From NCBI GenBank assembly GCA_019358895.1, contig JAHHIG010000004.1, forward strand, positions 62,001 to 126,000: DNA of 64,000 nucleotides. The letters are read 5' to 3'. This document shows positions 4,620 to 31,710 of the stretch, piece after piece. The position numbers were made by a program, and so were the translations under genes. Source of the DNA: Tildeniella nuda ZEHNDER 1965/U140. GTDB lineage: Bacteria; Cyanobacteriota; Cyanobacteriia; Leptolyngbyales; Leptolyngbyaceae. Within the stretch, counting starts at the first letter, position 1. Each line of letters starts with the position of its first letter. The notes beneath the pieces are model-generated. The model did no database searches, was not told the DNA's origin, and worked only from the letters and a program-made list of their open reading frames with translations.

Positions 4620-5020
4620 GTACAACGATTCAATCCCTGGTCGAGCGATCGCTGAACCTGGTCGAGCTAACTTTGCAGCTACTTGAGTGAGTGCCAGGTT
4701 GAGTGGAGTAACGTTTGAGCCTGATCGAGCCATATTTGAGCTGCGTCAGGCTATCGCTAAGCTAAGTCGAGTCATACTTTTGCTCAGTCAGGCTATCTCT
4801 GAACCAGGTTGAGCTATCTCTGAACCAGGTTGAGCTATCTCTGAACCTGGTTGAGCGATCTTCGCAGCCGCTTGAGTGAGCGCCCAGTTGAGTTGAGTGA
4901 TGGTTGAGCCTGATCGAGCCATGTTTGAGCTGCGTCAGGCTATCGCTCAGCTCAGTCGAGTGAACCTTTCGCTCAGTCAGGCTATCTCTGAAACTGATTG
5001 AGCCTGTTCAACGCTGAGTC
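4620..5020. repeat. 21-bp-period repeat array (A)
   Basis: About 400 bp of degenerate tandem units near GAGCTATCTCTGAACCAGGTT (21 bp). The best units are adjacent at about 4795-4858. Half-units TTGAGCCTGATCGAGCCAT and GCTCAGTCAGGCTATC recur at a larger spacing. The array occupies the gap between the VOC gene and the hypothetical gene at 5028. Related units with the same period make up array B at 11290-11640. Confidence 0.8.
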
Positions 5021-5726: not shown

Positions 5727-5868
5727 GCGATGTGCGACTTTCCTAAAATACCTGCCAAAACTGCCCTCACCCTAGCCCTCTCCCGATGGGAGAGGGAACC
5801 GGAACGGTCTGGAAGCCCTTCTCCCTGGGGAGAAGGGTGGGGATGAGGGCGAATTAGTTGCACATCGC
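5727..5868. repeat. REPIN/MITE-like element with inverted ends, copy 2
   Basis: A 142-bp element bounded by GCGATGTGCGAC (5727-5738) and its near-perfect inverse GTTGCACATCGC (5857-5868). Inside, the arms GCCCTCACCCTAGCCC... (from 5763) and ...GGTGGGGATGAGGGC (to 5850) pair as a long imperfect hairpin with two smaller hairpins in each arm. It ends nine bases short of the PIN gene's stop codon. No transposase is encoded, so it would be a non-autonomous element. Confidence 0.75.
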
Positions 5869-6700: not shown

Positions 6701-9700
6701 TTAGCTTGCCTTCTGCAACTCTGCGAGATACCAACGATCGCTCCCCTCTTCGTCATGTCTGGCAATAATGCCCAACGCTTCCAGGCTTTCGAGACAGGCG
6801 AGAATAATTTGTTTCTGACGAGAGGCACCTTTAAACTGCGCCGCAATTTGCACCACTGTCCATTCGCCACCCTGAGTACGAAGTAAATCGCGCACCGCTG
6901 CCAGTTGGTCTTTGAAAACTTTGGGAAAGGGCTGCTGTTCTACAGGGGCAATAGTGCTTTCCACTTCGACTTCAGCCATCCCTTCGAGCACTTGCTGCGT
7001 CTGCACTTCACCAGGAGCCTGATAGTCTGGACGCAGCCAGCGAATGAACCCATTACGTTCTTCTTCGGCGCGTTCTGCATTTAATGCCACCAGTCGTTCA
7101 AGGATAATTTCATTAATGCCCTCATCCCCAACCCTTCTCCCTTGGGGAGAAGGGAGTCCGGAGTTCCCCTCGCCCACTGGGAGAGGGGCTAGGGGTGAGG
7201 GAGAAAGCAAATCTTCCCACCCATACGCCTCAAACACGGCTGCATCCAGCTCATCATGGATCTGCTTCAGCGTAGAGACCAGTGCCTTGTTGTTAAATGC
7301 CCGATCGCCATCAGTCAGCTCAACCCCAGCGCGGATCTTTTCCAGCAGGTTATACATGGCAGTGATGGTGACATCGGGATGCTGTGCCTGAATGCGCTTA
7401 CGGTGAGCATCGAGCCGATCGCCCAGGTCGCGGATTTTTTGTTTGAGTGCGGGTGTGGGGTCGGGGAAGGGAAAGGGATCGAAGCAAACAGTTTTGTTAT
7501 AGCGAGGTCTATCTTCTAGCCTTCCCCCTGCTGCAAGTGCCCAGGTGACATGAATTTTGCTGGAGAGAACTCCCAGGAAATAAGCGTCGTCGAGGGCGAT
7601 CGCAATCAGCATATTATCTGGAACAACGTCATGGTCTAAAAACACAAACACACGATGCTTTGCTGTTTCTACTGTGACAACGTATCGCTCAAGTGACTGT
7701 AAAGCTGGTCTTAAAGTGGCTCTTGCTTCACCATATATCCACCAGTTGTCACGAAGTGCCTTGCGATTATTGGTGTCTCGCTCAGGTTTAACTCGTTCAT
7801 AAATCCACTGATAAACAGTTGGGTATGACGTTTGTACCTGTGAGATCGACAATCCGAATAAATCGATCGTGTAAAGCCCTCTTGCTCGATCTGTAATATC
7901 TCTTCCATGAAGATAGGGCTTGATTACAGAGTGCAGCGAAGAATTAGCTGCATATCCCAACAGAGAAGCTTCCTGTGGCGTAACTAGAAACCCCGCTCCT
8001 GTCATTTTCATCCCAGGACATGACAGATTTAGATTGGCTTTTAGCTTTACTGAACTACTAACGTCGGCTCCAGCCTGAAGATCGCTAAAGATCTTAGTAA
8101 CTTGATGCAACCTTATATCAACTTGCTCTGCTGAATCTTCTGGTGTCTCTGCTTCAATTTCTCTCACAACTCTTCCAAGTTGTGCCACTCGGACAATATT
8201 CGATGTATCAGCTTGTCCTACTGTCATTGCAATTCTGACGGCTGCACCTTCATCTTCTACCCAGGGATGATCGGCAATGGCAAAGATCAAACGGATAGGG
8301 TCTTTTTGATTTTGATGGAACTCGATTACTTTGCGCTGACGAACCTGATGAATGCTGTTTGTTGTGATGAAGCCAAAGCGAGTAATGTGGTTTGCTCTGG
8401 CTAACTCTGCGGCTTTGTGCCACCAATACATGACGTAATCGACGGTATCGGGGACATCTTTATACACTTTGCGGAGGGTTTCAGCATAGCCATCGCCTAG
8501 TCGTTCACGAATCCAGGCATTGCCAATGAAGGGGGGATTGCTCACGATGTAGACTTGACCCTCATCCCCAACCCTTCTCCCTGATGGAGAAGGGAGTCCG
8601 GCGTTCCCCTCTCTTGTTGGGCGGTAGACTTGACCCTCATCCCCAACCCTTCTCCCTGATGGAGAAGGGAGCCGAGCCACATTCTTGTCCCCCTCGCCCT
8701 CCGGGAGAGGGGCTAGGGGTGAGGGCAAAGACTGCGCGATCGTCTCCAAAACTGCTTCTGTGTTACTCAACACCGCTTCATTCTGAAAGCGCAAAACCGT
8801 AAAGCCATTTGCCTGCATCCATTGGTCGCGATCGCTATCCTGTTGCTGTTGCTGTTGATGAATACCACCATCTAATTCAACGACAAGACGAGCCTCATGG
8901 CAGTAAAAGTCAGCAATAAACTGTCCCAGGTTATGCTGTCTACGGAACTTGGCATTATGAAGACGGCGATCGCGCAAACACTCCCACAGTAACTTCTCTA
9001 CAGGCGTTTGCTGCTGCCTCAACTCTTTTGCTCGTTGCAGTAATGCTTTGGGAATTTGTCTAGTACGCCCCGCCAGCATAGAAAGTCCCTCATCCCCAGC
9101 CCTTCTCCCGCTGGGATAAGGGAGCTTCCGGTTCCCCTCTCCCACCGGGAGAGGGGCTAGGGGTGAGGGCAATCCAGGCAACCACTCAGCGGGGCGCGGA
9201 TTGATATACCGATAAATCGGGATCTGATCACTCGAATCGGGCACCAGTTCTCCCGTCACGGGATGCTTCATCGTCCGTCCACCCCAGCGCGTTCTCAACT
9301 TCCCCGTCTTCGGGTCAACCTCCTCCTCCTTACCGTCATACGCCAGCACCGCATCGCGGCACTCAATGTTGTGGTATTCCCGCAGCACAGGCTCCACTGG
9401 GGGAATGTCGCCAAACCGTCGAAAGTGCCACTGCAAATAGCCAATCCAGATCACCAGATCGGCGATCGCAGCCGCCCGTGGGTTTAGCTCAATGCCCAAA
9501 AACTGCGACGGGTTCACCTGGTCAATATCCAGCCGTAGCTGTGCCTGTCCCGTCACATCTTCCAGTCGACGCAACACCTCTGATTCCAGTTGCTTCATCA
9601 AATCCAGCGTCACATACAAGAAATTGCCTGACCCACACGCCGGATCAAGAATTTTCACCGTGCGTAACTCCGCCAGAAAGCCTTCTAAGGCGGCAACGGC

Positions 9701-11125
9701 TTTCTTCTTCTGGGTGGTGGTTGGCTCTGTATCCACATCGCCCAAAATCTGCTTTACGTCCCCCTGCACCAGATCCCACTGTTCCCGCAATGGCTCCATC
9801 ACCACCGGACGCACTAGCCGTTCCACGTACGATCGGGGCGTATAGTGCGCTCCCAGTTTGCTGCGTTCCTTGGTGTCGAGTGCCCGCTCCAGCAACGTCC
9901 CAAAAATCGCAGGCTCCACGTCCTTCCATTCCCGCTTTGCTGCCGTCAGCAACACCGCAAGCTGATCCGCATTCAACTCAAACGCCGTTGCCTCAGCAAA
10001 CAAGCCCCCGTTAAACTTCAGCAACCTGCCATAAAAGCCAAACGCCGTGCCATCATTCATCGCCTGCCACAGCGCTTCCACCTCCGGCTGAAAGGTCTTG
10101 GGGTTAAGCAACCAGCGCGTCTCCAATGCCTCTGTAAACAAATGCTCTTTCAGCAGTCCCACATCTTCTGCAAACATCGTAAAGATGCAGCGCATGAGAA
10201 AGTGAGCCACTTCCTGCGGTCTGCCCTCGTCCCCTAGCTTTTTGCCCTCATCCCCAGCCCTTCTCCCTGAGGGAGAAGGGAGCCGATTCAGTTCCTCTTT
10301 TCCCTGGTAAGAAGGCACTAGGGGCTGATCCAGTTCCCCTTCTCCCTGGTAAGAAGGCACTAGGGGCTGATCCAGTTCCCCTTCTCCCTGGTAAGAAGGC
10401 ACTGGGGGCTGATCCAGTTCCTCTTTTCCCTGGTAAGAAGGCACTAGGGGCTGATCCAGTTCCCCTTCTCCCTGGGGAGAAGGGGCTAGGGGATGAGGGC
10501 TTCTTTCCAACCGCTTCGATAGCTCCGCCAGATCTGCCGCCACCTCTCGCGTCACCTTCGCCGCTATCTTTTCAGGGTTGCGCGCCTGTGGATCGGTAAA
10601 GATGTCCACCAACAGAGCAAAGATGGCTTCCTTACGCAGATCCGTCAGCGCGATATCTTGACGCGCTCCATAGCCGCCATAATCCCCGTTGAAGCCTGTC
10701 CAAAGCTCAAAGTGATCGCCAATATCGCAGGTCAATAAAAACGGTGGCTTGTTAGATACATTGCGCGTGTAGGCGATCGCCTGCACAAACGCGGCTTCCA
10801 TTGCCTTCAGGTAGGCATTCGTCCCACGTTTCGCTGTCCCCTTACCCGCTTGATCACTGCCCTGCTTTGCCTCAATCAGAAAGTGATCGGCTTTGTAGAA
10901 GTCAATATAGCCCGGTGTCTTCTTACCGCTGGGATGATAGATGGTGATGTGCTTGTCAAAACAGTACGGCACTGCTGCATCGCTGCCATTCACATTGGGG
11001 CGATCGACTCCCAGCGCATCACACAGTTCTCCAAAGAACATCTGATAGTTACCGCGTTCACTGCCGCTAGAGGTTTGCCAGCGGGTAATAAATTGCTCAA
11101 TGCGGGCGACATCGGTTGGAGTCAT
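6701..11125 (-). CDS. MmeI-like (type IIG/IIL) restriction-modification protein with in-frame repeat and DUF559 insertions
   Basis: A 1474-residue single-chain endonuclease/DNA adenine methyltransferase, far longer than the usual 900-1100. Nuclease residues D75-X9-E85-X-K87 match the MmeI pattern. Methyltransferase motif I (DPACGSG, from 494) and motif IV (NPPF, 863-866) are intact; a target-recognition region and C-terminal helical part follow. The extra length is four in-frame insertions: residues 209-303 (palindromic repeat plus 42-bp tandem units), 652-856 (repeats flanking a complete DUF559 nuclease domain, 691-799), and a repeat copy around 1309-1336. No stop interrupts the frame. No separate specificity subunit is needed in this family. 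Whether the enlarged enzyme is active is unknown. Confidence 0.8.
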   Translation of the reverse strand: MTPTDVARIEQFITRWQTSSGSERGNYQMFFGELCDALGVDRPNVNGSDAAVPYCFDKHITIYHPSGKKTPGYIDFYKADHFLIEAKQGSDQAGKGTAKRGTNAYLKAMEAAFVQAIAYTRNVSNKPPFLLTCDIGDHFELWTGFNGDYGGYGARQDIALTDLRKEAIFALLVDIFTDPQARNPEKIAAKVTREVAADLAELSKRLERSPHPLAPSPQGEGELDQPLVPSYQGKEELDQPPVPSYQGEGELDQPLVPSYQGEGELDQPLVPSYQGKEELNRLPSPSGRRAGDEGKKLGDEGRPQEVAHFLMRCIFTMFAEDVGLLKEHLFTEALETRWLLNPKTFQPEVEALWQAMNDGTAFGFYGRLLKFNGGLFAEATAFELNADQLAVLLTAAKREWKDVEPAIFGTLLERALDTKERSKLGAHYTPRSYVERLVRPVVMEPLREQWDLVQGDVKQILGDVDTEPTTTQKKKAVAALEGFLAELRTVKILDPACGSGNFLYVTLDLMKQLESEVLRRLEDVTGQAQLRLDIDQVNPSQFLGIELNPRAAAIADLVIWIGYLQWHFRRFGDIPPVEPVLREYHNIECRDAVLAYDGKEEEVDPKTGKLRTRWGGRTMKHPVTGELVPDSSDQIPIYRYINPRPAEWLPGLPSPLAPLPVGEGNRKLPYPSGRRAGDEGLSMLAGRTRQIPKALLQRAKELRQQQTPVEKLLWECLRDRRLHNAKFRRQHNLGQFIADFYCHEARLVVELDGGIHQQQQQQDSDRDQWMQANGFTVLRFQNEAVLSNTEAVLETIAQSLPSPLAPLPEGEGDKNVARLPSPSGRRVGDEGQVYRPTREGNAGLPSPSGRRVGDEGQVYIVSNPPFIGNAWIRERLGDGYAETLRKVYKDVPDTVDYVMYWWHKAAELARANHITRFGFITTNSIHQVRQRKVIEFHQNQKDPIRLIFAIADHPWVEDEGAAVRIAMTVGQADTSNIVRVAQLGRVVREIEAETPEDSAEQVDIRLHQVTKIFSDLQAGADVSSSVKLKANLNLSCPGMKMTGAGFLVTPQEASLLGYAANSSLHSVIKPYLHGRDITDRARGLYTIDLFGLSISQVQTSYPTVYQWIYERVKPERDTNNRKALRDNWWIYGEARATLRPALQSLERYVVTVETAKHRVFVFLDHDVVPDNMLIAIALDDAYFLGVLSSKIHVTWALAAGGRLEDRPRYNKTVCFDPFPFPDPTPALKQKIRDLGDRLDAHRKRIQAQHPDVTITAMYNLLEKIRAGVELTDGDRAFNNKALVSTLKQIHDELDAAVFEAYGWEDLLSPSPLAPLPVGEGNSGLPSPQGRRVGDEGINEIILERLVALNAERAEEERNGFIRWLRPDYQAPGEVQTQQVLEGMAEVEVESTIAPVEQQPFPKVFKDQLAAVRDLLRTQGGEWTVVQIAAQFKGASRQKQIILACLESLEALGIIARHDEEGSDRWYLAELQKAS
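7118..7201. repeat. Palindromic repeat inside the RM gene (site A)
   Basis: GCCCTCATCCCCAACCC at the left pairs with GGGGCTAGGGGTGAGGG at the right, with GGAGAAGGGAG and TCCCCTCGCCC between. It is read by the RM gene as LSPSPLAPLPVGEG...GRRVGDEG, between the helical EDLL and INEIILERLVALNAE segments. Confidence 0.85.
8549..8671. repeat. 48-bp direct duplication inside the RM gene (site B)
   Basis: The 48 bases at 8549-8596 recur exactly at 8624-8671, 75 bp (25 codons) away. Each copy encodes SPSGRRVGDEGQVY. The copy begins within the host codons for VY just before NPPF, so a piece of host sequence was copied with the repeat, like a target duplication. Confidence 0.85.
8634..8726. repeat. Palindromic repeat inside the RM gene (site C, right flank of the DUF559 cassette)
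   Basis: Starts CCCTCATCCCCAACCC and ends GAGGGGCTAGGGGTGAGGGC, so the ends can pair. Read by the RM gene as LPSPLAPLPEGEG...SPSGRRVGDEG. Confidence 0.85.
9087..9170. repeat. Palindromic repeat inside the RM gene (site D, left flank of the DUF559 cassette)
   Basis: Starts CCCTCATCCCCAGCCC and ends GGGGCTAGGGGTGAGGGC. Read as LPSPLAPLPVGEGNRKLPY followed by PSGRRAGDEG, directly before the DUF559 domain. Confidence 0.85.
10217..10501. repeat. Palindromic repeat expanded by 42-bp tandem units inside the RM gene (site E)
   Basis: Between the ends of a palindromic repeat lie four complete 42-bp units (10285-10326, 10327-10368, 10369-10410, 10411-10452) and a partial fifth. Each encodes the 14 residues ELDQPLVPSYQGEG with small changes. 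Because 42 is divisible by 3 the frame is kept whatever the copy number. The host protein resumes at RPQEVAHFLMRC. Confidence 0.9.
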
Positions 11126-11760
11126 GCAGGGCTTCCAGATTCGGGCAGTGAGGGGACGCGAGATTAAGCGTGGATGAGGCGATCGTCTACCACTTTATCC
11201 GTTCAGTATTCCCACTTATCTCTCCAACCTACAAACTCTGCTCCCGGACGGTCGAGGGTTTTGCCAGTCGATCGCTATGCAGGAGGCGATCGTGCTGAAT
11301 TGAGTGCATCATCTAGCCGAGCTATCCTGCAACCGGGTTGAGTCGTCTCTGCGATCGGACGAGCCAGCTCTGAACTGGGTTGAGTGGTTAAATTACCTGG
11401 ATGAGCAAGTGCAGCGCTCAGTCGAGTGAGCAAAAAGACTGCTCAAGCTGATGCTGAACCTGCTTAAGCAATCTCTGCACTGAGTCGAGTAGTCTTTGAG
11501 CCTGGTCGAGCGATCTTTGCACTGAGTCGAGTTGTCTTTGAGCCTGGTCGAGCCATCTTTGCACTGGGTCGAGTAGTCTTTGAGCCTAGTCGAGCTATCT
11601 CTGAACTGGGTCGAGTAGTTTTTGAACTGGCTCAAGCTACCCCAACAGTCTGAGCCGTGTGGCTCCAGCACTGCTTACCGCTGCGGATCACGCTCCAAGT
11701 ATGGATTCATTCCAGAGAAGGGCGATTGCATTATTCAACCTTGGCATCACCAGTGGACGC
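11126..11760. other. Intergenic region dominated by repeat array B
   Basis: About 635 bp between the RM gene and the TrpD-like gene. The first 160 bp show nothing clear; the rest is the 21-bp-period array. I see no real gene: the longest open frame encodes only monotonous seven-residue repeats. Confidence 0.7.
11290..11640. repeat. 21-bp-period repeat array (B)
   Basis: Tandem units close to TCGAGTAGTCTTTGAGCCTGG, alternating with TCGAGCCATCTTTGCACTGGG (both 21 bp), best between 11460 and 11630. On the minus strand an open frame reads a heptad STRLKDY/STQCKDG repeat. Units resemble those of array A. Confidence 0.85.
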
Positions 11761-14045: not shown

Positions 14046-14111
14046 TTTTTTGACCGTCGATTAGTTAGCGCATTGAGTAGTGCCTAAAAGCCATCTGCCA
14101 TCAATTTATGT

Positions 14112-14370
<259 letters not shown>

Positions 14371-14385
14371 AACCAGCAAAGACTA

Positions 14386-14413
14386 AAAAAGCCCCGCAAG
14401 ACGCAGGGCTAAT
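14386..14413 (-). terminator. Rho-independent terminator of the COP23 gene
   Basis: On the minus strand AGCCCTGCGTCTTGCGGGGCT forms a GC-rich hairpin followed by TTTTTTAG, 36 bp after the stop codon. Confidence 0.8.
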
Positions 14414-14448
14414 CGTTCGTTAGAGTCTTTGAAAATTGGACGTTCAGC

Positions 14449-24960: not shown

Positions 24961-25479
24961 ATGTTGGACGCATTTGCAAAAGTAGTCTCCCAAGCTGACG
25001 CACGGGGTGAGTATCTTAGTGATTCTCAATTGGATGCCCTGAGCGCTATGGTTGCAGATGGCAACAAGCGTACAGATGTTGTGAACCGGATCACCAGCAA
25101 CTCATCCACGATCGTTGCTAACGCAGCTCGCGCTCTGTTTGCAGAACAACCCCAGCTGATCGCACCTGGTGGCAATGCTTACACCAGCCGCCGCATGGCT
25201 GCTTGTTTGCGTGACATGGAAATTATTCTGCGCTATGTCACCTATGCAATCTATGCCGGTGATGCAAGCATTCTTGACGATCGCTGCCTCAATGGTTTGA
25301 GAGAAACCTACCTGGCTTTGGGTACCCCCGGTTCTTCTGTTGCCGCTGGTGTGCAGAAAATGAAGGATGCTGCACTCGCTATTGCGGGCGACCCCAACGG
25401 TGTTACCAAAGGCGATTGTGCAAGCCTGATGAGTGAAGTGGGTAGCTATTTTGACAAAGCTGCTGCGGCTGTTGGTTAA
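24961..25479 (+). CDS. cpcB1: C-phycocyanin beta subunit, first copy
   Basis: A 172-residue phycobiliprotein with the beta-phycocyanin marks: chromophore Cys82 in [17 protein letters not shown], the second chromophore Cys near 153 in [13 protein letters not shown], and the methylated Asn72 in APGGNAYT. It pairs with CpcA in (alpha-beta) hexamers of the phycobilisome rods. The start is the ATG at 24961 (MLDAFAKVV), preceded by TAGGAG. It heads cpcB1-cpcA1-cpcE-cpcF, which has no rod linkers. It differs from cpcB2 at several positions (for example AIYAGDASI against AAFVGDASV). Confidence 0.95.
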
Positions 25480-25574
25480 GCGATCGCTCACCTACTCAAT
25501 CACCTTTCGGTGACTCAGCCACTCGTCACCAGCTAGTTTGCAAAACAAGATTACTTTGGAGACAATCTGACCTC

Positions 25575-26063
25575 ATGAAGACCCCTCTAACCGAAGCAGT
25601 TGCTGCTGCTGATTCTCAAGGACGCTTCCTTAGCTCCACCGAAATTCAAGTTGCGTTTGGTCGTTTCCTCCAGGCGAAAGCAGGTTTGGAAGCAGCTAAA
25701 GCATTGAACTCAAAAGCGTCCAGTCTCGCTTCTGGTGCTGCTAACGCCGTGTACCAAAAGTTTCCTTACACCACCAGCATGGAAGGTCCTAGCTACGCTT
25801 CCAGTCAGGTTGGTAAAGACAAGTGCGTGCGTGACATCGGCTACTACCTCCGTATGGTCACCTACTGCCTCGTCGTGGGTGGTACAGGTCCGATGGATGA
25901 TTACCTGATTGGCGGTATCGCTGAGATCAACCGTACCTTTGAGTTGTCTCCTAGCTGGTACATTGAGGCACTCAAGCACATTAAAGCGAATCATGGTTTG
26001 AGCGGCGACCCTGCTGTGGAAGCTAATTCTTACCTCGACTACGCCATCAATGCTCTGAGCTAA
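25575..26063 (+). CDS. cpcA1: C-phycocyanin alpha subunit, first copy
   Basis: A 162-residue alpha-phycocyanin: [20 protein letters not shown] start and phycocyanobilin-binding Cys84 in [18 protein letters not shown], with the usual [20 protein letters not shown] ending. Attachment at Cys84 is carried out by the CpcE/CpcF lyase encoded just downstream. It lies 95 bp after cpcB1, normal cpcBA spacing. A strong hairpin follows its stop and probably limits read-through into cpcE. Confidence 0.95.
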
Positions 26064-30614: not shown

Positions 30615-31103
30615 TTAGCTCAGGGCGTTAATGGCGTAGTCAATATAGGAATTGGCTTCCACAGCAGGGTCACCGCTCAAACCATGATTGGCTTTGATGT
30701 GCTTGAGGGCTTCCACATACCAGCTAGGAGACAAATCAAACGTGCGGTTGATTTCAGCCAGACCACCGATCAAGTAGTCATCCATTGGACCTGTGCTGCC
30801 TGCAATCAAGCAGTAGGTGACCATGCGGAGGTAGTAACCGATGTCGCGCACGCACTTTGCTTTCCCACCAGGGGTCGAAGCATAGTTGTTTCCCTGCATT
30901 TGAGTGGTGTAGGGAAACTTCTGATAAACCGCATTAGCAGCACCATCTGCTAAGCTTTGCGCTTTAGAGCTTAGCCCTTTTGCAGCATCAAGACTTGCAG
31001 CAGCTTGGCGAAAGCGACCAAACGCAACTTGAATTTCGGTGGAACTGAGAAAGCGTCCTTGAGAATCTGCTGTAGCGACCGCTTCCGTTAAAGGAGTTTT
31101 CAT
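30615..31103 (-). CDS. cpcA2: C-phycocyanin alpha subunit, second copy
   Basis: A 162-residue alpha-phycocyanin, very similar to cpcA1, with chromophore Cys84 in [19 protein letters not shown]. Differences cluster at 33-53 ([19 protein letters not shown] against [19 protein letters not shown]) and 70-80 ([11 protein letters not shown]). The ATG at 31103 is used; the open frame extends two codons upstream to a TTG. It is co-transcribed with cpcB2 (88 bp upstream) and followed by rod linkers, so this set, unlike cpcB1A1, carries its own linkers. Confidence 0.95.
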
Positions 31104-31191
31104 GATCAATCGTCCTTGTAGGTGTGCAAAAGAATAAATAATCGTTGCTGGTGGAAGTAGACTTCTGCTAGAAGTCAGCGTGAAACTAACG

Positions 31192-31710
31192 TTAGCCTAC
31201 GGCTGCTGCTGCCCGATCGAAGTAGCTGCTCAGCTCAGACATCAAGGAGCTACAGTCGCCACGAGTGACACCATTAGGATCGTTAGCGATCGCCAATGCC
31301 GCTTCCTTCATTTTGTTGACACCAGCTGCAACGGAACCACCTGGCACACCTAGAGCCAAGTAGGTTTCCCGCAAGCCGTTCAAGCAGCGATCGTCCAACA
31401 CACTGGCATCGCCAACAAAGGCAGCGTAGGTCACATAGCGAAGAATGATTTCCATGTCGCGCAGGCAAGCAGCCATACGACGGTTGGTGTAAGCATTGCC
31501 ACCGGGTGCGATCAACTGGGGTTGTTCTGCAAACAGAGCGCGAGCTGCGTTAGCAACGATCGTGGACGAGTTGCTGGTAATCCGGTTGACCGCATCCATG
31601 CGCTTGGTACCATCCGACACCATTGCTTTCAATGCGTCAATCTGAGAATCACTGACGTAATCGCCGCGAGTGTCTGCCTGGGAAACCACTTTAGTAAAAG
31701 CGTCTAGCAT
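31192..31710 (-). CDS. cpcB2: C-phycocyanin beta subunit, second copy
   Basis: A 172-residue beta-phycocyanin with Cys82 ([17 protein letters not shown]), the Cys near 153 ([13 protein letters not shown]) and [23 protein letters not shown] precedes the ATG. It heads the operon cpcB2-cpcA2-two linkers-cpcD. An L box lies about 330 bp upstream (32039-32056) and the RcaC-like regulator gene is the next gene upstream, so this is most likely the red-light-induced phycocyanin of a type III chromatic acclimator. Confidence 0.95.

Follow-up and report, generated by a model that had tools for sequence, protein, structure and literature searches.

An open reading frame (ORF) for an MmeI-like type IIG restriction-modification protein of the cyanobacterium Tildeniella nuda ZEHNDER 1965/U140 carries, in frame, a DUF559 nuclease domain enclosed by REPIN-like palindromic repeats. 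Comparative evidence makes it likely that this block is a copy of a mobile unit that joins a DUF559 nuclease with an EDxHD/Vsr-like homing-endonuclease fold to its own REPIN-like palindromes. The comparison reveals (i) in-frame presence and absence, (ii) pairing of nuclease clade with repeat type, (iii) dispersed solo repeats and (iv) a homing-endonuclease fold. The same pairing of enzyme and repeat recurs across many bacteria and in one archaeon, suggesting that mobile DNA units of this kind are widespread. Below, 'the window' is the whole stretch of DNA that was analysed, i.e. 64,000 nucleotides of contig JAHHIG010000004.1.

Host gene and in-frame insert

The host ORF (window positions 6701–11125, minus strand) was delimited from the ORF list, Pfam and homologues and encodes 1474 amino acids. 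Pfam recognises MmeI_N, MmeI_hel, MmeI_Mtase and MmeI_TRD in the protein; with the N-terminal, helical, methylase and TRD domains all present, the host belongs to the MmeI-like type IIG enzymes. The DUF559 domain (PF04480; 8726–9043, minus strand; profile match, Pfam and alignment) occupies residues 695–800 (E 4.4e-38), and the methylase motifs DPACGSG (residue 494) and NPPF (residue 863) enclose the insert. Read along the gene, the insert consists of a REPIN-like repeat on the 5' side (9087–9169), the nuclease domain, a REPIN-like repeat on the 3' side (8634–8725) and a further partial head-hairpin unit with linker (8559–8633, repeat family D6), which begins 75 bp before the neighbouring copy. 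Both complete repeats, identified by repeat search and pattern count, have the order head-hairpin, linker, hairpin-head.

On the minus strand, positions 9172–8558 form a stop-free block with palindromes at both ends, which the first-pass annotation had described as an insertion of 615 bp and exactly 205 codons. The in-frame insertion holds, but the size needs correction: judged by the junction in 16 homologues that have no insert, the net gain is 206 codons (618 bp, approximately 9172–8555, minus strand). The ends are fixed only to within a few bases because the adjoining residues (LPG and QV) are not conserved.

An AlphaFold model of the methylase with its insert has a pTM of 0.49, so that only the DUF559 core and the low-confidence linkers of the model were used. 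The pLDDT exceeds 90 in most of the core and stays below 50 for most of the repeat-encoded linkers, and the strand ahead of NPPF is preserved. As modelled, the linkers that carry the insert are probably disordered. The earlier placement of a second nuclease 'in the catalytic core' was therefore imprecise, since the insert lies just ahead of the NPPF-bearing strand, on low-confidence linkers. Pfam finds no splicing domain in the window protein, the ends of the insert being palindromes, and a consensus search within 8500–9250 gave no promoter for a separate nuclease transcript.

Empty sites and presence or absence within a genus

A search for the window methylase in 145 genomes of the class returned 18 genomes, the own one included, at E 1e-100 or better. 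The junction is visible in 16 of the 17 others and the insert is absent in all 16; the remaining genome (G009, L177) has a C-terminal match only and was not counted. The spacing between the W and Y that border the site is 4 residues in the 16 homologues (e.g. WPEADYIVSNPPF) versus 210 in the window. The alignment with MmeI-like homologues that the first-pass annotation had proposed thus yields 16 genes without the block, i.e. empty sites. One homologue of the window methylase (G082:C89, L179) is accompanied by three REPIN-like pairs, located within the gene or next to it, and lacks DUF559 at the site that is occupied in the window.

Presence and absence also differ between two genomes of one genus: G052 carries the cassette and a second repeat ∼250 bp upstream, and G068 has neither; a third genome of this genus gave no match at the same search level. 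On the upstream side the two genes share 91% DNA identity (1258 bp), on the downstream side 81% (1204 bp). Read from the alignment, the host stretch minus the insert measures 15 residues in both, which fits codon-precise insertion. Five of the 25 T1 repeats of the G052 genome (repeat types are introduced below) sit in the cassette-bearing host gene. No target-site duplication is visible in this pair, in which the bases adjoining the insert differ, and no single target sequence was found for cassette insertion. In a search for strain-level empty sites on plasmids, an insertion sequence (IS) element within the Sinorhizobium query took most of the matches. An Azospirillum gene region was present in all seven records that cover the bulk of the query; on other replicons of that genus, nothing but short stretches adjoining the nuclease recurs.

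The DUF559 nuclease

Residues E16, D45, E56, D58 and H62 (numbered along the domain in the first row) are invariant in all 45 aligned domains, in-frame ones included; the alignment covers 45 of 48 loci, three being left out. EDxHD stands for the active-site motif of the homing endonucleases of that name. The DUF559 profile matches structure 3hrl (E 2.6e-30) and, at E 2.1e-5, structure 3r3p (I-Bth0305I), which is a mobile-intron protein; Foldseek relates the predicted domain to 3r3p (E 7.6e-4). The predicted domain has a pLDDT of 88.9, and its best fold matches are 3hrl and the catalytic domain of I-Bth0305I, with Vsr lower. By alignment, profile and Foldseek, DUF559 shares both the fold and the active-site residues that mark EDxHD homing endonucleases.

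Among the matches listed, the closest named nuclease to the window domain is that of Drouetiella hepatica (75%). The own genome contains two full-length DUF559 matches, i.e. that of the window and one on contig C30 (L043), which lies in frame within an Eco57I-kind methylase of 1715 aa and is flanked by the same repeat family as the window insert. A third match (C11) is weak and partial, and falls in a 269-aa ORF of different make-up.

Repeats in the window and in the own genome

The repeats have a C-rich head followed by a hairpin that pairs a pyrimidine arm with a purine arm, the commonest heads being CCTCACCCC variants. In the window, the pattern CCCTCAYCCCN{2,7}CCCYTCTCCC has 11 occurrences (mean of 100 shuffles, 0.00), of which 9 fall within the host ORF. 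Together with the Pfam match, this bears out the earlier statement that a complete DUF559 lies between repeats found elsewhere in the window.

Copies without a nuclease occur both within and outside the host gene. A solo REPIN-like repeat found by repeat search (7119–7201) is in frame near the C-terminus of the host ORF, and an in-frame array near its N-terminus (10236–10499, families D3 and D8) consists of two heads enclosing 42-bp tandem hairpin units. These units (10278–10496) derive from the hairpin, and their in-frame translation is a series of LDQPLVPSYQGEGE-like peptides; at L043, DUF559 is likewise preceded by a tandem run of similar kind (GGQEG...). Two further solo copies of the same repeat family, which form inverted pair I3, lie at 909–994 and at 5770–5855, the latter outside the listed ORFs of at least 80 aa.

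Dispersed solo repeats are likewise present in the own genome (6.08 Mb in 38 contigs), which holds 123 copies of repeat type T1. The window ORF contains 9 copies and the second methylase ORF (L043) 10, i.e. 19 in ∼9.6 kb; among the places listed, at least 19 of the 123 copies thus fall in the two DUF559-bearing methylase ORFs. For the first 30 other T1 places listed (29 readable; L201, at a contig edge, was left out), one is in frame inside a gene (L191) and 28 have no frame that extends 80 residues on both sides. The GCGATCGC words in the genome are a mark of cyanobacteria; on this ground, and on that of the Drouetiella match, the class-level relatives of the own genome are presumably cyanobacteria as well.

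The window has other repetitive features. A tandem array of 7- and 14-bp units (GCTGACC-like) spans 14063–14424, and related short-period repeats lie at 4636–5003 and 11313–11637; a small ORF that has STQ/RLKD repeats overlaps the latter. Long inverted copies at 24961–26063 and 30615–31710 (519 and 491 nt, 76–78% complementarity) are probably two related genes in opposite orientation.

Association of DUF559 with palindromic repeats

We compared the surroundings of DUF559 with several controls. Exact inverted repeats of at least 16 nt between 300-bp flanks occur at 21 of 73 DUF559 loci from many phyla (7 of 80 loci with a flank below 150 bp left out) versus none of 1518 control positions. At a threshold of 14 nt, the counts are 18 of 48 loci versus 1 of 1041 controls in the related-genome set, and 40 of 120 loci (8 of 128 left out) versus 2 of 381 small control ORFs (Fisher p 3e-25), the 40 being divided into 11 of 43 long-frame loci and 29 of 77 others. 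Hairpins on both sides were found at 95 of 128 DUF559 loci versus 160 of 1373 control positions.

The repeats fall into types that were defined after inspection of the data. Within the same 58 genomes, T1, T2 or T3 lies within 260 bp on at least one side of 40 of 47 DUF559 loci (1 of 48 left out), versus 0 of 28 GIY-YIG and 2 of 29 RAYT-type Y1_Tnp loci. The controls were the top-scoring loci among the matches listed, with roughly one per genome at most; many GIY-YIG domains lie in UvrC-length frames, and 4 of 33 Y1_Tnp and 2 of 30 GIY-YIG loci with a cut flank were left out by length. The same type stands on both sides of 29 of the 47 DUF559 loci and of no control locus. A stricter look at these 47 found an inverted repeat of at least 14 nt in 18 and none of the three types in 7. 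DUF559 is therefore flanked by palindromes far above chance, in line with the first-pass annotation; neither homologues with the domain at this place and no repeats, nor a lack of association between DUF559 and the repeats, came to light.

A fixed outward orientation of the heads was considered and rejected. C/G-type hairpins stand on either side of the nuclease at 82 of 128 loci; in 17 of these both outermost heads point outward only, in 12 both point inward only, and the rest are mixed or headless.

Repeat type goes with nuclease clade, even within single genomes, with exceptions. In a tree of 54 DUF559 domains from related and named cyanobacterial genomes (2 domains below 95 aa are missing from the 56 related-genome rows), the repeat label changes 11 times versus a shuffled mean of 22.6, and none of 200 shuffles was as low; genome relatedness is only partly controlled in this comparison. 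All 10 rows of clade D (support 100) carry T2, and three of the genomes represented in this clade (G017, G019 and G043) also hold nucleases of other clades beside T1 or T4. The exceptions on the tree are T2 at L066, outside clade D, and T1 at L058, inside the T3 clade; a further 8 of the 54 rows have no recognised type (5) or the minor type T4 (3). Copy numbers follow the same pattern: the 28 genomes that hold a non-D DUF559 have a median of 26 T1 copies and the 30 that hold none a median of 2.5 (p 1.5e-5), and T2 copies go with the presence of clade D in genomes (p 1.3e-4).

One alternative is that another enzyme moves the palindromes, and that DUF559 was captured passively between two copies by recombination. 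It draws on the abundance of repeats without a nuclease (the 123 T1 copies against two full-length DUF559 domains in the own genome) and on genomes that have repeats and no strong DUF559 match, i.e. G013, G036, G031 and G004 with 134, 65, 37 and 25 T1 copies, which may hold either orphan repeat populations or a missed nuclease. T2 repeats similarly occur without a clade D nuclease in G057 (83), G010 (38) and G056 (15). Passive capture nevertheless seems unlikely to us, since repeat type follows DUF559 clade, also within one genome, and since the obvious other enzyme, the RAYT, rarely adjoins the repeats: none of the four Y1_Tnp genes of the own genome has a T1 arm or head in its locus with 1.5-kb flanks, and the wider Y1_Tnp control gave only the two cases above. 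GIY-YIG, an unrelated small nuclease family, likewise had none of the three types nearby at its 28 control loci.

DUF559 could also be a Vsr-like nuclease that processes or repairs palindromes and is kept by the cell beside hairpins, a functional association with no mobility. The frequent hairpins on both sides of DUF559 and the Vsr-type fold lower in the fold list would suit such a role, but patchy presence, in-frame insertion in unrelated genes and presence and absence within a genus look like a selfish element and not like housekeeping, and we regard this reading as quite improbable.

Distribution and host genes

At E 0.001, DUF559 is present in 47 of 58 related genomes, the own one included. 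The related-genome set comprises 48 loci, of which 47 reach E 1e-20 or better and one, in G001, is a degenerate copy; 18 of the 48, the window included, lie in frames longer than 330 aa. According to Pfam, 16 of these 18 hosts have restriction-modification or DNA-methylase domains, a count in which L039 rests on a match below the cut-off, and L041 and L042 on DUF1156, which we take to be a methylase-associated domain; no such domain was found by Pfam in L045 and L048. Separately annotated DUF559 genes also occur a few hundred base pairs upstream of DNA-methylase genes (PglX-like, DUF1156) on a plasmid of Synechocystis sp. B12 (L226) and on pAQ6 (L227).

A wider scan took one genome each of 84,980 species, and the best 80 further loci among the matches listed were used. 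Of these, 27 lie in frames of at least 400 aa, with restriction-modification hosts in 18 (HsdR 5, HsdM 8, type IIG or ISP 5), although the scan ranks by likeness to the window domain, so that hosts of the window kind are over-represented. Seven others are ValS, UvrA, riboflavin synthase, PyrD, an epimerase, a Mur ligase and a RecF/SMC-like protein (DUF559 being terminal, not internal, in the PyrD and RecF-like frames), and two frames contain DUF559 only. Restriction-modification genes are over-represented as hosts in our sample, perhaps, as a guess, through being mobile between genomes and tolerant of insertions. Domain fusion under selection, with DUF559 as a second nuclease of restriction-modification enzymes, would accord with the 16 of 18 and 18 of 27 hosts but is very improbable given the other hosts, the differing positions in methylases and the homologues without DUF559.

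Insert positions vary among methylase hosts. Six HsdM inserts from distant lineages share a common loop, the site being compared at loop level and not at the exact nucleotide, and fall into one DUF559 clade with 3 of 5 HsdR inserts (support 87; 2 of 128 domains, below 95 aa, left out of the tree). For 15 HsdM pairs, host identity is 41–83% and nuclease identity 51–68%, with no clear correlation by eye; in this small set, the lack of correlation fits repeated insertion or turnover.

Comparison with known systems

In RAYTs, enzyme type goes with repeat type, which is a defining mark of that system, and DUF559 shows the same mark with the exceptions named above. Other likenesses to REP/RAYT are a small enzyme gene beside its own palindromes, many solo repeats, a head with a hairpin and inverted pairs (PMC3733652, available part). 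By contrast, the enzyme is DUF559 here and an HUH tyrosine transposase there (Pfam finds no Y1_Tnp in the host protein), and the head is CCCTCAYCCC or a relative here and GTAG there. By analogy, the DUF559 unit may work like REP/RAYT while lacking two of its defining marks, the HUH enzyme and the GTAG head, and like a homing endonuclease that has neither intron nor intein. At L070, a clade D DUF559 has a partial RAYT-type transposase (G017:C17:122626–122859) ∼600 bp upstream.

Rickettsia palindromic elements are read in frame, and we know of no enzyme that travels with them or with intragenic REPs. The repeats studied here resemble both in having palindromes inside genes, as described in the available part of PMC3733652. 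That part deals with GTAG and CGTC palindromes, with RAYTs and with intragenic REPs, reports CGTC repeats without a dedicated transposase and makes no mention of DUF. A rough search found CGTC-type motifs beside DUF559 at 1 of 128 loci. DUF559 with palindromes was found described in none of the titles and abstract openings searched; most subscription literature lies outside that search, and an earlier description is possible.

Inteins are an established homing vehicle. Nuclease-bearing inteins resemble the window insert in that a nuclease is inserted in frame into a protein gene, and at L047 (G057) a DNA methylase carries an intein-like insert that contains DUF559 itself, the splicing-domain match there being below the Pfam cut-off; L074 (G030) is alike by sequence. 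L047 has no palindromes around this DUF559, and L074 has one T1 arm on one side. The window insert differs in having no splicing domain, and its predicted product keeps the insert. EDxHD homing endonucleases such as I-Bth0305I are related to DUF559 in sequence and fold, and the available part of PMC9403480 assigns a DUF559 gene to this family; the window DUF559 differs in being surrounded by palindromes in place of an intron or intein.

Proposed mobility and implications

The idea of a small nuclease that travels with its palindromes in the manner of RAYT/REP pairs, raised by the first-pass annotation, gains support from the association, the clade-specific repeats, the control families, the presence and absence within a genus and the homing fold. 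For such a mobile unit we propose that (i) DUF559 would cut or nick DNA at or near a palindrome or at the target; (ii) repair or single-strand exchange would fill the break with a copy of the cassette or of the palindromes only; and (iii) no splicing would remove the cassette from coding DNA. Solo repeats could then be non-autonomous partners of the DUF559 unit because palindromes alone would also be copied into breaks, and the cassette may persist in coding DNA because the repeats are stop-free in some frames and encode flexible linkers. On a bolder reading, to which we are somewhat inclined, these units constitute a new class of mobile element that reaches across many bacterial phyla and into at least one archaeon. 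DUF559 and the palindromes specific to its clade would move by themselves as a pair, give rise to REPIN-like solo offspring and colonise coding genes, above all those of restriction-modification, in frame and without splicing.

If this is true, an enzyme would be assigned to a large group of C-rich palindromic repeats, and a second nuclease family would be added to the REP/RAYT principle. It would also account for the odd 'DUF559 plus low-complexity' stretches in restriction-modification proteins. The intein-like inserts at L047 and L074 offer a natural comparison case for homing, and setting palindrome-borne against intein-borne DUF559 would allow the steps between homing and repeat-driven mobility to be compared.
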